Positions 10,953 through 22,004 of a DNA stretch of 64,000 nucleotides are shown piece after piece (the stretch's first letter is position 1; every line of letters begins with the position of its first letter). The position numbers and the translations under genes are program-made. Source of the stretch: Sneathiella limimaris. GTDB lineage: Bacteria; Pseudomonadota; Alphaproteobacteria; Sneathiellales; Sneathiellaceae. Below the pieces are notes generated by a model, which was given only the letters and a program-made list of their open reading frames with translations, made no database searches and was not told where the DNA came from. Location of the stretch: NCBI RefSeq assembly GCF_012932565.1, contig NZ_JABBYJ010000001.1, positions 682,001-746,000 on the forward strand, given 5' to 3'.

Positions 10953-12383
10953 TCAGTTTTCCAACATACGGCGCAAGAGATCAATATCTTCAGCTAATGA
11001 GCTGTCATCGACCTGCAATTCATCAATCTTACGAACTGCGTGCATAACAGTTGTATGGTCCCGCCCGCCAAATTTTCGACCAATTTCAGGAAGAGAACGA
11101 CTAGTCAGTTGTTTAGCCAGATACATGGCAACCTGTCGAGGCCGAGCAACGGCTCGTGCGCGTCGGGCAGAATGCATGTCAGACATTCGGATATTGAAAT
11201 GTTCAGCAACTTTTTTCTGAATTTCCTCAATCGTTGTACGCCGATCGTTTGCCCGAAGGAGGTCGCGCAAGACTTCTTGCGTACTTTCCAGAGTGACAGC
11301 ACGGCCAACTAACTCGGAATAGGCCAGAACCCTGTTCAGCGCACCTTCCAGTTCCCGGACATTGGACGTGATCTTGTGGGCCAGAAACTCAAGGATATGA
11401 GGGTCGATAGAAATATTTCCCTGCTCCACCTTGGACTGCAGAATACCCAGGCGAAGCTCATAGTCTGTTGGGTGAATATCTGCAACAAGCCCCCAGCCAA
11501 GACGGGAGCGCATCCGTTCCTCCATCCCTTCCAGATCCGTTGGAGACCGATCACCAGATATGATGATTTGGTGATTTTGATCAACCAATGCGTTGAAGGT
11601 ATGGAAAAATTCTTCCTGAGTTGACTCTTTGCCGGAGATAAACTGCACGTCATCAATCATCAGCACGTCAACGGATCGGAACTGTTCCTTAAAATTCATG
11701 GTGTCCTTGTAGCGAAGAGCACTGATAAAGCGGAACATGAACTTCTCAGCAGAGAGGTATAGGACCTTTTTCTGTGGGCTATTCTCCGCGATTGCATGAC
11801 CAATGGCGTGCATTAAATGGGTTTTGCCAAGCCCTACACCGCCATAAATATAAAGCGGATTAAAAGGAATATTGTCCTTTGCTTCGGCCACGCGGCGTGC
11901 AGCTGCATGGGCAAGTTCATTGGATTTACCAACCACAAAATTTTCGAATGTAAAACGAGGGTCCAATTGAGATTTCAGACTACCATTTGCCTCTGAATGG
12001 TTCTGTACCCCATTTGCTCCGTTAAGTTTGGTTTTCCCCTGCCCGTCAACCAATGTGGTAGGAGAGACGAAGGCTCGCGAGCTTTCTTCGACTTTTGCGG
12101 GTTGGATTTCACGAACGTGAATATCGATAGATTGAATTTCTTTATTTTGAAGGCACCATAACTGGCGGATGCGGTTGGCGTAATTGTTGATAACCCAATC
12201 CCGCAGAAATTTTGTCGGCAGCGTCATGGTTACATGACCGTTCTTGACTTCTTTCAGATCAATATTTTTCAGCCAAGAGTTATAGGTGGCTTCACCATAT
12301 TCGGCTTTTAGGCTGTCCTGGATACGAATCCAAGATTCTTGATCTTCAGTGGACAAGGTGTTGACCATTTCCTCAGCTGCCAT
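10953..12383 (-). CDS. dnaA: Chromosomal replication initiator DnaA
   Basis: The AAA+ initiator that binds and melts oriC. Its 476 residues contain domain I at the N-terminus (SWIRIQDSLKAEYGEATYNSWL), a variable linker (about 105-150), the AAA+ domain with Walker A GGVGLGKTHLMHAIG and Walker B VDVLMIDDVQFI, and domain IV with the DnaA signature GRKFGGRDHTTVMHAVRKID. The ATG is only 2 bases after the stop of the rhodanese-like gene, indicating translational coupling. The dnaA-dnaN-recF-gyrB order is the ancestral bacterial one; many alphaproteobacteria have scattered it. Confidence 0.98.
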   Translation of the reverse strand: MAAEEMVNTLSTEDQESWIRIQDSLKAEYGEATYNSWLKNIDLKEVKNGHVTMTLPTKFLRDWVINNYANRIRQLWCLQNKEIQSIDIHVREIQPAKVEESSRAFVSPTTLVDGQGKTKLNGANGVQNHSEANGSLKSQLDPRFTFENFVVGKSNELAHAAARRVAEAKDNIPFNPLYIYGGVGLGKTHLMHAIGHAIAENSPQKKVLYLSAEKFMFRFISALRYKDTMNFKEQFRSVDVLMIDDVQFISGKESTQEEFFHTFNALVDQNHQIIISGDRSPTDLEGMEERMRSRLGWGLVADIHPTDYELRLGILQSKVEQGNISIDPHILEFLAHKITSNVRELEGALNRVLAYSELVGRAVTLESTQEVLRDLLRANDRRTTIEEIQKKVAEHFNIRMSDMHSARRARAVARPRQVAMYLAKQLTSRSLPEIGRKFGGRDHTTVMHAVRKIDELQVDDSSLAEDIDLLRRMLEN

Positions 12384-12385
12384 TT

Positions 12386-12829
12386 TTAGTTCTGCTTCCA
12401 GTCAAGGTTACGCACTTTCCAGCCCCCAACGGTTCCCCGGTGACCGTGTGTGTCGTGATCGCCCTCAAATCCTTCAAGGATGTTGTAGCAGGTCTCGTAA
12501 CCCTCTTTGGTTGCGGCAATGGCAGCTGCTATGGAACGAACACCTGAGCGGCAAAGGAACAGGATTGGTTGCGATTTATCAGCCTGAACTTCCTGAATTT
12601 GATCTAGAAATGTCGGGTTGGGTGACATGTCCGGGAACATAACCCATGAAATCATATGACATGACTTATTCAGCGCGGTCAGGTCAGGCACACCAACAAA
12701 GGCCCATTCTGCATTGGTCCGAACATCAACAAGAATGGCGTCAGGGTTTGATTGCAGTATATCCCACGCCTCGTTGGGCGTTATGTCACCAGCATACTCT
12801 TTCTGATCCATGTTGATACCTGTTGTCAT
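12386..12829 (-). CDS. Rhodanese-like domain protein in a tight pair with dnaA
   Basis: A single-domain rhodanese (147 residues from the chosen ATG). ITPNEAWDILQ leads into AILVDVRTNAEW, and the active-site loop is CRSGVRS with Cys93, so the sulfur-carrying cysteine is intact. Such proteins transfer sulfane sulfur or act as redox/sulfur sensors; the partner is unknown. The stop codon is 2 bases before the dnaA start. Three in-frame ATGs are possible (12856, 12829, 12811); 12829 is chosen because GGAAGG precedes it and the rhodanese fold starts just after. Confidence 0.88.
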   Translation of the reverse strand: MTTGINMDQKEYAGDITPNEAWDILQSNPDAILVDVRTNAEWAFVGVPDLTALNKSCHMISWVMFPDMSPNPTFLDQIQEVQADKSQPILFLCRSGVRSIAAAIAATKEGYETCYNILEGFEGDHDTHGHRGTVGGWKVRNLDWKQN

Positions 12830-12881
12830 TATTTTGTCGGCCTTCCTGACAATCATTGAGCAAAGTTAAAATGATCCTCAT

Positions 12882-12899
12882 CCTGCAGAAAACTGCAGG
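12882..12899. repeat. Hairpin CCTGCAG-AAAA-CTGCAGG
   Basis: A perfect seven-base inverted repeat with a four-base A loop, about 55 bases upstream of the rhodanese-dnaA start. It could be an operator or a leader hairpin of the dnaA transcript. Confidence 0.45.
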
Positions 12900-13062
12900 T
12901 TTCAGACCTAAATGGTAGCTTGAGATTGATAGCAAAGAAGCACAGTCTAAGGCATTCAGGATCAACTCAAAAGCATGTCCAAAGTTGATGCCGATCCAAA
13001 CTGCACGATGTGACTATCAAGTGTCTGTTTGTACTCCCAATGACGAAGAATTTAATCTCAAC

Positions 13063-13071
13063 TTATCCACA
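13063..13071 (+). promoter_or_regulatory. Perfect DnaA box
   Basis: TTATCCACA, identical to the high-affinity DnaA-binding consensus. It lies about 235 bases upstream of the rhodanese-dnaA unit and could serve either replication initiation or DnaA autoregulation. Confidence 0.6.
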
Positions 13072-13236
13072 GATGCAAGACGGCCAATTCAGAATCCTTG
13101 AAAATAAAAGTTCCAATTGACAGAAGAAATTCTTGACCTACTAGATCTAGTTGGTTTTCCAAAAATTTCCTGAAATCATAAAATATGTTGAAAATTATGT
13201 AGGCTGAATTCTCGTCAAAAACACACCAAAAAGGCG

Positions 13237-13272
13237 AAAAAAAAGCCGCCCCCAACCATTGGGTAACGGCTT
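13237..13272 (-). terminator. Rho-independent terminator of rpsT
   Basis: Read on the minus strand, AAGCCG and CGGCTT pair around an inner CCCAA/TTGGG stem, followed by a run of eight T. It begins 21 bases after the rpsT stop. Confidence 0.85.
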
Positions 13273-13293
13273 GATTCTCGGCTCTGTGCTGGC

Positions 13294-13560
13294 TTATGCA
13301 GACAGAGCTTTTACCCGGGCATTCAAGCGGGAAATCTTGCGAGCAGCAGTATTCGGCTTGAGGATACCTTTTGTCACGCCACGAGAGAGTTCAGACTGGG
13401 CAGTACGAAGAGCTTCGTTTGCAACGGTCTGATCACCTGCAGTAATGGCAGTTTCTACTTTCTTTACGAAAGTACGAATGCGGCTGCGACGGGCACGGTT
13501 ACGTTCAGTGCGTGTCTCTGTCTGCCGGATCCGCTTAAGAGCTGATTTATGGTTCGCCAT
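13294..13560 (-). CDS. rpsT: Small ribosomal subunit protein bS20
   Basis: 88 residues starting [20 protein letters not shown], the standard S20 N-terminus, very rich in Arg, Lys and Ala and predicted to be all helical. It binds 16S rRNA in the 30S body. The ATG at 13560 is chosen over one five codons upstream because AGGAT lies at the right distance. A strong promoter sits just upstream and a terminator just downstream, so it is transcribed as a single gene. The rpsT-dnaA neighbourhood is common in alphaproteobacteria. Confidence 0.98.
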
Positions 13561-13598
13561 GACAATCCTGTACATTAGCTTCGAAATTCGGAAGCCGG

Positions 13599-13627
13599 GT
13601 TATAACTAGCCATTTTTCTGCCGTCAA
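13599..13627 (-). promoter_or_regulatory. Sigma-70 promoter of rpsT
   Basis: On the minus strand TTGACG, a 17-base spacer, then TATAAC: near-consensus and placed so that transcription would begin about 30 bases before the rpsT ATG. Its -35 region is part of an 11-base inverted repeat (TTTTTCTGCCG at 13613-13623 with CGGCAGAAAAA at 13647-13657) whose loop contains a second small stem, GGAGA/TCTCC. Confidence 0.75.
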
Positions 13628-13683
13628 CAGGAGAATCTCCAAATTCCGGCAGAAAAAGGTAATTTTCGGTGTTTTTACAATGA

Positions 13684-13705
13684 AACCGGGCTTTTTGGCC
13701 CGGTT
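13684..13705 (-). terminator. Terminator-like hairpin after the enoyl-CoA hydratase gene
   Basis: AACCGGGC-TTTTTG-GCCCGGTT, an eight-base stem 11 bases after the stop codon. The following T-run on the minus strand is short (TTT), so it may terminate weakly or protect the 3' end. Confidence 0.65.
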
Positions 13706-19733: not shown

Positions 19734-20189
19734 ATGATACACTTACCTAAGAAAATGCTGTACGCGCTGGAAGCTGTCGTTGATATCGCTTTCAATGCAC
19801 GGCCTGACCCGGTGCAGTCAAAGGAGATAACCCGTCGACAGGGGATCCCGCAGCGTTACCTGGAACAAGTTATGCAGCAATTGGTTCACGCTGGCATTTT
19901 AAAAGGTGTGCGTGGGCCGCGCGGAGGTTATCGCCTGGCGCGGGAGCGACGTCGGATAACTGCTGGCGATATCGTTCGTGTGATCAGCGCCGCTGATGAA
20001 GCGGATGGAGATGTCCAGATTTTCTCCTCGGAGATCGGACAGAAGGTGGTCGGACCTCTGTGGATCGAAGCACAGAACGCGTTGTTAAAACAGTTGGATA
20101 GCGTAACTCTTGAAGATCTTTGCATGAAAGCAGATCAGGACTGTCAGGTGGACAAAAATCAGGTTCCGCCGACAGATTTTAATATTTGA
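19734..20189 (+). CDS. Rrf2-family transcriptional regulator beside cysteine synthase
   Basis: 151 residues with the Rrf2 winged helix: MLYALEAVVDIAFNA, then QGIPQRYLEQVMQQL and GVRGPRGGYRLAR. Only two cysteines are near the end (LCMKADQDC), not the three-cysteine ligand set of IscR, so an iron-sulfur sensor of IscR type is less likely; a CymR-like regulator of cysteine metabolism is a reasonable alternative given the next gene. A strong Shine-Dalgarno, AAGGAGG, precedes the ATG. Confidence 0.85.
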   Translation: MIHLPKKMLYALEAVVDIAFNARPDPVQSKEITRRQGIPQRYLEQVMQQLVHAGILKGVRGPRGGYRLARERRRITAGDIVRVISAADEADGDVQIFSSEIGQKVVGPLWIEAQNALLKQLDSVTLEDLCMKADQDCQVDKNQVPPTDFNI

Positions 20190-20264
20190 TTGCACTTTGG
20201 CCTCGGTCAAACCCAAAAATTTTCCCGGAAACCGGCGTTTCTGGTCATAAAATGGAGACTTAAA

Positions 20265-21218
20265 ATGGAAAAAGTACCCCCGCGCGGTAAAGTCTATGAC
20301 AGCATTTTGGATACCATTGGCGGAACACCTTTGGTTCGGGCCAATCGCTTTGCCAAAAACCGGAATTTAAAAGCTAATCTTCTTCTAAAATTGGAATTCT
20401 TCAATCCACTGGCTTCCGTTAAAGACCGGATTTCACTGGCCATGATTGAAGCCATGGAGGAAGCCGGTGTTATTAACGAAAACACCAAAATTATCGAGCC
20501 AACCTCAGGTAATACAGGAATCGGATTAGCGTTTGTTTGCGCCGCTAAAGGATATGATCTTACGTTGGTGATGCCAGAAAGCATGTCTATTGAGCGCCGT
20601 AAAATGTTAAAACTCCTCGGCGCTAATCTGGAGCTGACTGAAGCTGCAAAAGGGATGAACGGTGCTGTTCTTCGGGCACAGGAAATGAAGGAAGAATATG
20701 GTGATGCGGTTATTCCGCAGCAGTTTTCCAATCCTGCAAATCCTGCCGTTCACAAGGTGACAACTGCAGAAGAAATCTGGACCGACACGAATGGCACTGT
20801 GGATGCAGTTGTGATGGGTGTTGGAACGGGCGGAACCCTGACCGGTGTCGGTTCAGTCTTGAAAGGTCATAACAAAGACATCAAAATCGTCGCTGTCGAG
20901 CCAGAAGACAGTCCTATCTTGTCCGGTGGACAACCTGGACCCCACAAAATCCAGGGAATTGGTGCGAACTTTGTTCCAGATAACCTGGATCGGAGCCTTA
21001 TTGATGAAGTTCTGACCATCGGAAACGAAACTGCATTTGAAACTTCACGGGCTTTAGCACGGGAAGAGGGTATTCCGGCTGGTATTTCCTCCGGTGCTGC
21101 CCTTGCAGCAGCCGTTGAAATTGCAGAAAGACCGGAAATGGCAGGCAAAAATATTGTGGTTGTTATTCCTTCTTTTGCAGAACGGTATTTGACAACAGCA
21201 CTTTTTGACGGAATTTGA
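20265..21218 (+). CDS. cysK: Cysteine synthase (O-acetylserine sulfhydrylase)
   Basis: PLP enzyme, 317 residues, making cysteine from O-acetylserine and sulfide. The PLP lysine is in NPLASVKDRIS, the substrate loop is TSGNTGIGLA, and the phosphate loop is GVGTGGTLTGVG. The start at 20265 (MEKVPPRG) is chosen because GGAG lies 8 bases upstream; an upstream in-frame ATG would add a non-family extension. CysK and CysM cannot be separated with certainty by eye. Confidence 0.95.
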   Translation: MEKVPPRGKVYDSILDTIGGTPLVRANRFAKNRNLKANLLLKLEFFNPLASVKDRISLAMIEAMEEAGVINENTKIIEPTSGNTGIGLAFVCAAKGYDLTLVMPESMSIERRKMLKLLGANLELTEAAKGMNGAVLRAQEMKEEYGDAVIPQQFSNPANPAVHKVTTAEEIWTDTNGTVDAVVMGVGTGGTLTGVGSVLKGHNKDIKIVAVEPEDSPILSGGQPGPHKIQGIGANFVPDNLDRSLIDEVLTIGNETAFETSRALAREEGIPAGISSGAALAAAVEIAERPEMAGKNIVVVIPSFAERYLTTALFDGI

Positions 21219-21224
21219 TCCAAT

Positions 21225-22004
21225 ATGCTGACCGATGACCAGCTTGATCGATATGCGCGTCATATAGTCCTTCGGGAAGTTGGCGGTATTGGTCAGCAAA
21301 AACTTCTAGATTCCAAGGTTTTAGTGATCGGTGCGGGTGGACTAGGCTCGCCCCTGATCCTCTATCTTGCTGCTGCAGGTGTGGGCACGATCGGTGTTGT
21401 AGACGATGACGTTGTGGATTTGTCCAATCTGCAACGTCAGATCGCGCATGGAACGGCGCAAATCGGGACGCCGAAGGTTGAAAGTGCGAAAGCTGCAGTC
21501 GCTAGAATTAATCCGGATGTTAAAATTGTTCCGCATGCAGAACGATTAATTCGAGGTAATGTTCGAAAACTGTTTCAATATTACGATCTGGTTGCGGATG
21601 GTTCGGATAATTTTGAAACCCGTTTTCTGATTAATGACGCCTGCTATTTCTTGAATAAACCTTTGGTTTCCGCGGCGATGCTGCAGTTTGAGGGCCAGCT
21701 TTCTACCTATAAGCCTTATTTGGGTGAGGGGCACCCCTGCTATCGGTGTATTTTCCCGTCGCCTCCGCCTGCGGATGTGGCAAGGACTTGTGGCGAGGCA
21801 GGTGTCCTCGGGGCACTTGCGGGTACAATGGGATCTTTACAGGCGGTAGAAGTCCTCAAAGAGTTGTTGGATATTGGGCAAAGTATGTCCGGCCAACTCT
21901 TGATCTATGATGCGCTTTATGCTGATTTTCGGAAAGTTCGCGTCAAACCAGATCCTGGATGCCCTTTATGTGGGGATCAACCGGCCATTAAAGAGGATTT
22001 TTAG
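21225..22004 (+). CDS. moeB: MoeB/ThiF-family adenylyltransferase
   Basis: 259 residues. The E1-like fold is clear: LDRYARHIVLREVGGIGQQ, the nucleotide loop GAGGLGSPLILYLAAAGVG and DDDVVDLSNLQRQ. Zinc cysteines occur as CYRC and CPLC. The enzyme adenylates the C-terminal glycine of a small sulfur-carrier protein (MoaD or ThiS); there is no fused rhodanese domain. It follows cysK after 6 bases, so the Rrf2-cysK-moeB group is likely one sulfur-related operon. MoeB versus ThiF cannot be decided here. Confidence 0.88.
   Translation: MLTDDQLDRYARHIVLREVGGIGQQKLLDSKVLVIGAGGLGSPLILYLAAAGVGTIGVVDDDVVDLSNLQRQIAHGTAQIGTPKVESAKAAVARINPDVKIVPHAERLIRGNVRKLFQYYDLVADGSDNFETRFLINDACYFLNKPLVSAAMLQFEGQLSTYKPYLGEGHPCYRCIFPSPPPADVARTCGEAGVLGALAGTMGSLQAVEVLKELLDIGQSMSGQLLIYDALYADFRKVRVKPDPGCPLCGDQPAIKEDF

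Follow-up and report, generated by a model that had tools for sequence, protein, structure and literature searches.

A single-domain rhodanese gene conserved ahead of dnaA in Alphaproteobacteria, with a putative role in sulfur and methionine assimilation

Gene order and the rhodanese-dnaA junction

On the minus strand of the window (the whole 64,000-nucleotide stretch of Sneathiella limimaris DNA analyzed here), genes for enoyl-CoA hydratase, ribosomal protein S20 (rpsT), a single-domain rhodanese, DnaA, DnaN, RecF, and GyrB follow one another in that order (Table 1), the identities of dnaN, recF, and gyrB having been assigned by eye. The rpsT stop is 464 nt from the rhodanese ATG, and dnaA is separated from dnaN by 288 nt. 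With the last base of the rhodanese stop codon at 12386 and the first base of the dnaA ATG at 12383, two bases lie between the genes, in agreement with an earlier reading of the letters alone (the sequence-only reading), which had the rhodanese end two bases before the dnaA ATG. The span given there for the rhodanese, 12381-12829, takes in the dnaA ATG, and the ORF itself is 12386-12829.

Table 1. Features of the rpsT-rhodanese-dnaA region (positions in the window)
Feature	Position	Strand	Basis
dnaA, 476 aa	10953..12383	-	TIGR00362, 578.6 bits (cut-off, 343.9)
2-nt gap, rhodanese stop to dnaA ATG	12384..12385	-	ORF coordinates
Single-domain rhodanese, 147 aa, Rv0390/2FSX-like family	12386..12829	-	Pfam PF00581, 42.3 bits; PDB 2fsx_A, E 8e-39
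Codon of loop-end Arg98	12536..12538	-	Identical in 132/132 aligned family proteins
Codon of active-site Cys93, loop C93-R-S-G-V-R98	12551..12553	-	Position in translation
Promoter-like TTGCAT (13073-13078), 17 nt, TTAAAT (13050-13055)	13050..13078	-	Upstream of rhodanese
Perfect DnaA box TTATCCACA in promoter-like spacer	13063..13071	+	Exact box match
Terminator-like hairpin and run of 8 U after rpsT	13237..13272	-	Conserved in genus alignment
rpsT (ribosomal protein S20), upstream neighbor	13294..13560	-	PF01649, 108.6 bits

All 19 junctions compared, 17 from the genus (the window included), one from a second genus of the family (L028), and one from a Sneathiellales MAG (L070), have an in-frame dnaA ATG at -1 to +4 nt relative to the rhodanese stop. 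Throughout this set, the start codon stays close enough to the preceding stop codon to be reached from it, as in coupled gene pairs. A second in-frame ATG occurs 25 to 32 nt further on in six of the 19 junctions, and L017 has one at +10, so the dnaA start is uncertain there. The dnaA Shine-Dalgarno sequence is located within the last rhodanese codons; its predicted strength ranges from -3.3 to -4.8 kcal/mol across 18 junctions and reaches -6.6 kcal/mol in L028, compared with a mean of -2.7 kcal/mol for random 19-mers of the window. Equally weak Shine-Dalgarno sequences are found at other window genes, dnaN among them. The junction and the weak Shine-Dalgarno sequence fit termination-reinitiation, without proving it, and gene anatomy points to probable translational coupling of the two genes, in which dnaA would be translated in part by ribosomes finishing the rhodanese. 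Other families of the class also have dnaA start candidates close to the end of the rhodanese gene, at 0 to +7 nt (L030, L037, L099, L121, L149, L150, L155, and L157).

Tight spacing by itself is ordinary. Among 38 same-strand neighbor pairs in the window (genes taken as long ORFs), gaps of -4 to +4 nt occur in three, rhodanese-dnaA included, and gaps within 20 nt in 14. It is the conservation of the pair that goes beyond chance.

The rhodanese protein

The protein scores well above the PF00581 cut-off (42.3 versus 22.2 bits), and Cys93, which the sequence-only reading had rightly taken to be intact, opens the six-residue active-site loop CRSGVR. No substitution of Cys93, Gly96, or Arg98 occurs in the 132 family proteins aligned, among them that of the window; DVRT..EW and WK..L.WxQ served as search patterns for the 80 named loci considered below, and invariance there is partly due to selection. 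The ATG at 12829 is the conserved start in the genus alignment, and a longer in-frame ATG is present at 12856. Among solved structures, the closest in sequence is 2FSX, and the match to it spans residues 11 to 146, including the C-terminal FEG..HRG..GWK..L.W.Q segment. Structure 2FSX is Rv0390, with loop CRSGNR as listed in Table 4 of PMC8533005, where sulfur transfer from thiosulfate by yeast RDL2 is also described as requiring the loop-end Arg.

No NCBIfam cut-off is passed by the window rhodanese. Identity as GlpE (NF001195) was rejected at 26.6 bits versus an equivalog cut-off of 102, as was identity as the tRNA uridine hydroxylase TrhO (NF001133) at 21.2 bits versus 170. The family is represented by a single copy in the genome. 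The protein is predicted to be an active sulfurtransferase, which would carry sulfane sulfur as a Cys93 persulfide.

Region between rpsT and the rhodanese

The terminator-like hairpin after rpsT has a folding z of -2.9 (13225-13285); a simple scan did not list it. About 160 nt beyond this hairpin lies the promoter-like site, with mean column identities across 21 regions of 94% for TTGCAT and 76% for the -10 side, which is TTACTC-like in a subgroup of six regions. It matches the sigma-70 consensus poorly and was not listed by the simple promoter scan, which returned a single minus-strand site, in rpsT, and three sites in total versus 1.8 expected. The conserved element may function as a promoter.

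In 15 of the 21 regions, the DnaA box in the promoter-like spacer has an exact counterpart at the corresponding place (nine in the same alignment columns and six shifted by a few nucleotides); in the other six, the box is altered or missing. Relaxed DnaA boxes in the whole window occur at the level of chance (6 versus 5.97 expected). With one mismatch or fewer allowed, 69 rpsT-rhodanese regions contain 29 boxes versus 7.2 expected. The genus and its nearest MAG (21 loci) account for 20 of the 29 and the remaining 48 regions for nine, which is no clear enrichment outside the genus. By the same measure, 65 rhodanese-dnaA gaps contain one box (0.3 expected) and 72 rhodanese genes contain five (3.9 expected).

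A dnaA promoter inside the rhodanese gene, which the sequence-only reading had considered grounds for abandoning the coupling, gave no sign in either the simple scan or codon conservation, together a weak test (codon conservation at the rhodanese 3' end, 0.56 over the last 15 columns, with four usable codons, versus 0.54 overall; 20 sequences). No promoter-like site is conserved other than the one before the rhodanese, with its DnaA box. Transcription in the genus would start there, between the rpsT terminator and the rhodanese, and rhodanese and dnaA would form a single transcription unit, the rhodanese cistron first, under one putative shared promoter.

A replication origin in the rpsT-rhodanese gap is not proposed, as the gap contains one exact DnaA box and no origin-like cluster. 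No CcrM site (GANTC) is conserved in this gap apart from one near rpsT. Rfam models, riboswitches included, gave nothing at gathering score for 12300-13700; two matches far below such scores (E 0.32 and 0.99) were taken as chance. GC skew is near zero or slightly negative from ~3 to 15 kb and mostly positive from 15 to 48 kb, and the change at ~15000 would be consistent with a replication origin nearby. A further conserved block, located upstream of the promoter-like site (13117-13156, minus strand; genus consensus about AC.ACATCTTGTAGGTCAAGA), has a mean column identity of ~80% over the 21 regions and, with the terminator, is the best-conserved part of the gap. The window copy of the block contains the palindrome ACTAGATCTAGT.

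Conservation of the pair

Among 60 genomes searched as relatives, 39 have a rhodanese match (E up to 0.001), and a dnaA match is present in 17 of the 21 without one. In 30 of these relatives' loci that were fetched, dnaA lies behind the rhodanese in 24, the contig ends just past the rhodanese in four (L019, L022, L033, and L036), and the rhodanese is elsewhere in two (L032 and L035). In the DnaA box counts, the family alignment, and the tree, L069 was left out as a duplicate of L011.

Across the class, 241 genomes at least 90% complete were sampled. Homologs at E 1e-15 are carried by 103 and were not found at that threshold in 138. All 103 carriers have dnaA, and the rhodanese is directly upstream of it in 76, representing 41 family codes, and elsewhere in 27. 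Both genes are on the same contig and strand in 70 carriers; in six further genomes counted as adjacent (G011, G033, G134, G167, G182, and G247), the rhodanese ends and dnaA begins the same contig, which was taken as circular. Among 72 loci in which dnaA is present or the dnaA side is truncated, 69 have rpsT upstream of the rhodanese, and the order rpsT-rhodanese-dnaA recurs in four of four further class genomes from a phylum-wide sample (G307, G350, G426, and G443). In other classes of Pseudomonadota, the rhodanese is near dnaA in 0 of 38 carriers, many of them drafts. The arrangement is therefore not specific to one strain, an outcome that the sequence-only reading had named as refuting its proposal and that did not occur; as far as sampled, the arrangement is alphaproteobacterial, and it is an old one in that class. 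The rhodanese is of a known type, and its conserved neighborhood is real.

The spacing is less uniform than the order. Estimated rhodanese-dnaA gaps, which assume DnaA of equal length, run from overlap to ~450 nt in the class (70 pairs; 25th percentile, 2 nt; median, 54.5 nt; 75th percentile, 145 nt); 27 of the 70 direct pairs have gaps of 30 nt or less, and several families have 70 to 400 nt. Repeated origin or retention of the tight junction is possible, and in lineages that have it the place before dnaA may matter for dnaA expression.

A tree of 132 family proteins (141 columns) has 11 context changes among dnaA, metZ, and cysI, with 66 of 127 inner branches open, and this poor resolution permits no call on whether the dnaA or the metZ context is older. 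The pair was not found described in the literature on rhodanese and dnaA, which was judged mostly by title and included little of the subscription literature. In the accessible part of a Sinorhizobium tolC paper, a different rhodanese is concerned (PMC2912261), and the word rhodanese is absent from the accessible part of a survey of the alphaproteobacterial cell cycle (PMC2877005).

Association of the family with metZ and sulfur genes

Neighborhoods of the family were surveyed in the best 80 of 537 confirmed loci, which are not a random sample, the search patterns having been taken from the family. In this set, the rhodanese is adjacent to metZ in 33 (22 from Actinomycetota and 11 proteobacterial) and to dnaA in 27; it has only rpsT at a contig end in one and none of these neighbors in 17, and in two, from Magnetospirillum, a divergent gene of the nitrite/sulfite reductase family and cysH adjoin it. 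The metZ query, taken from L144, exceeds the cut-offs of two O-succinylhomoserine sulfhydrylase models (803 versus 618 and 642 versus 510 bits), as does the cysH query that of PRK02090 (246 versus 154 bits). The Magnetospirillum reductase remains under every cut-off, the best being the NirA family (204.5 versus 523). Among the 27 class carriers with the rhodanese away from dnaA, metZ is at most 120 nt away in 15 and within 6 kb in three more. In the genome under study, metZ (G000:C1:982929) is ~288 kb from the rhodanese, and the frequent, non-defining adjacency of the two is absent.

A SAM_alpha riboswitch (RF00521) directly precedes metZ in eight of 17 proteobacterial metZ-adjacent loci scanned (L071, L077, L080, L090, L095, L110, L156, and L164). 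In L090, L095, L110, and L156, riboswitch, metZ, and rhodanese follow one another on one strand, with ~29 to 52 nt between the ends of the metZ and rhodanese matches, and this succession places the rhodanese in a putative SAM riboswitch unit. Since L090 and L095 are close relatives, these amount to about three independent cases; in the other four riboswitch loci, metZ points at the rhodanese from the opposite strand. By their gene order, the riboswitch loci place the rhodanese family with methionine synthesis. No SAM riboswitch was found in the 22 dnaA-adjacent loci scanned or in 12300-13700 of the window, and no Rfam family at all reached its gathering score in those 22 loci. The dnaA-linked copy is outside SAM_alpha riboswitch control.

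The rhodanese also tracks metZ across genomes. In the 241 class genomes, MetZ scores over its curated cut-off in 93 of 103 rhodanese carriers versus 44 of 138 noncarriers (odds ratio, 19.9), and in 69 of the 76 genomes with the rhodanese next to dnaA. When only the 180 genomes with any MetZ-model match are counted, the figures are 93 of 103 versus 44 of 77. Taking one genome per family, the only way in which kinship was handled in these counts, gives 47 of 52 versus 24 of 45 (p 6e-5), and genomes of at least 3.5 Mb give 56 of 58 versus 30 of 38, with weaker significance (p 0.013). Against an association with MetZ, 10 of the 103 carriers are without MetZ over the cut-off, and metZ is near the rhodanese in 0 of 38 carriers of other classes even though 34 of them have a MetZ-like gene.

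Other neighborhoods were also seen. In 19 loci without dnaA, metZ, rpsT, or cysI, neighbors were viewed by eye (L072 apart), the rhodanese ORF being missing from the script's calls in nine. An NAD(P)-binding oxidoreductase-like gene directly adjoins the rhodanese in L072 (2688-5737), from a Rhodospirillales MAG, and a MoeB-subfamily gene and a small gene that matches no NCBIfam model at 1e-10 are convergent with the rhodanese. The window itself has a plus-strand sulfur cluster at 19734-22004, ~7 to 9 kb from the rhodanese, comprising an Rrf2-family regulator, cysteine synthase A, and a MoeB-subfamily gene, each over its NCBIfam cut-off. In Rhodococcus proteomics, rhodanese and MetZ are mentioned separately and unlinked in the accessible part of the study (PMC8557817).

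Interpretation and alternatives

The best reading of the locus as a whole, with a probability of roughly 0.7, is that the gene encodes a sulfane-sulfur transferase of sulfur/methionine assimilation and forms the first cistron before dnaA. It draws on gene identity, the junction, conservation, family contexts, co-occurrence with metZ, and the riboswitch before metZ-rhodanese pairs elsewhere; the riboswitch result raises confidence in it and slightly lowers that in its rivals. The sulfane sulfur would most likely be used around homocysteine/methionine synthesis, in the MetZ branch, in a presumed partnership with that enzyme, and the metabolic job would be unchanged whether the gene lies beside dnaA, metZ, or other sulfur genes.

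Alternatively, translation of the rhodanese could serve as a nutrient gauge, with DnaA synthesis following the supply of sulfur or methionine. Such coupling would suit the in-frame ATG at all 19 junctions, the mostly weak dnaA Shine-Dalgarno sequence, and the spread of the pair over 41 family codes, and the 155-nt leader that lowers dnaA translation in Caulobacter upon nutrient depletion (PMC4489657) provides a parallel. A tight junction is not general in the class, however, where the middle half of the 70 estimated gaps spans 2 to 145 nt; furthermore, neither 12300-13700 nor the 22 dnaA-adjacent loci hold an Rfam family at gathering score, and more than half of the sampled class genomes (138 of 241) lack the homolog. 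Regulation of this kind is unlikely, and it is quite unlikely in its most specific form, in which the rhodanese cistron of Sneathiella and its relatives would be a translated dnaA leader whose flow, under the DnaA box promoter, ties initiation to sulfur/methionine supply. Chance entry or retention of the rhodanese between rpsT and dnaA, with dnaA on its own promoter and the spacing due to compaction, is similarly improbable. Gene order near dnaA changes slowly, tight gaps are not rare in the window, and several families have ample space between the two genes, all points in favor of such plain synteny; nevertheless, the genus leaves no room between rhodanese and dnaA, the last part of the rhodanese gene shows no raised codon conservation (on few codons), and the promoter-like site that is conserved is upstream of the rhodanese.

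A direct role in replication, for example, persulfidation of DnaA or its protection from oxidation, has the conserved neighborhood as its sole point in favor and is highly improbable. It was discarded on two grounds: in other genomes the family is associated with metZ, in some loci behind a SAM riboswitch, and many class genomes lack this rhodanese. In addition, the rhodanese is never near dnaA in the 38 carriers of other classes, and literature containing both words, judged mostly by title, draws no link. Of the coupling proposed in the sequence-only reading, the abutting genes and a junction permitting termination-reinitiation stand, whereas a link to replication initiation is not supported: the family is found by metZ, tracks metZ, and gave no hit at E 1e-15 in 138 of 241 class genomes.

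Assignment to sulfane-sulfur transfer would replace a puzzling connection between a rhodanese and replication with a concrete function, sulfur supply near MetZ, and would give a function to a widespread rhodanese family that in some relatives appears to be part of a SAM riboswitch regulon. It also draws attention to a conserved dnaA neighborhood in Alphaproteobacteria that was not found described in literature searched mostly at listing level. Should DnaA synthesis indeed be set by the tight junction, the locus would offer a simple system in which nutrient state acts on replication initiation.

Comparison with known systems

The closest parallel discussed here is Rv0390 of Mycobacterium tuberculosis (PDB 2FSX), which resembles the window rhodanese over residues 11 to 146 (E 8e-39) and shares with it the loop CRSG-x-R and the C-terminal GW..L.W.Q segment. 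Actinomycete relatives precede metZ (22 of the 33 metZ-adjacent loci among the best 80 of 537), whereas the window gene precedes dnaA; Rv0390 itself presumably neighbors metZ. The rhodanese of PDB 8w14 is also similar over residues 11 to 146 (E 1.2e-26). The thiosulfate sulfurtransferase GlpE is likewise a single-domain rhodanese but has the loop CYHGNS (PMC8533005, Table 4) in place of CRSGVR. In Caulobacter, dnaA is preceded by a stretch that controls its translation, as may also be the case in the window; the stretch is an untranslated leader of 155 nt in the former (PMC4489657) and a rhodanese cistron in the latter.
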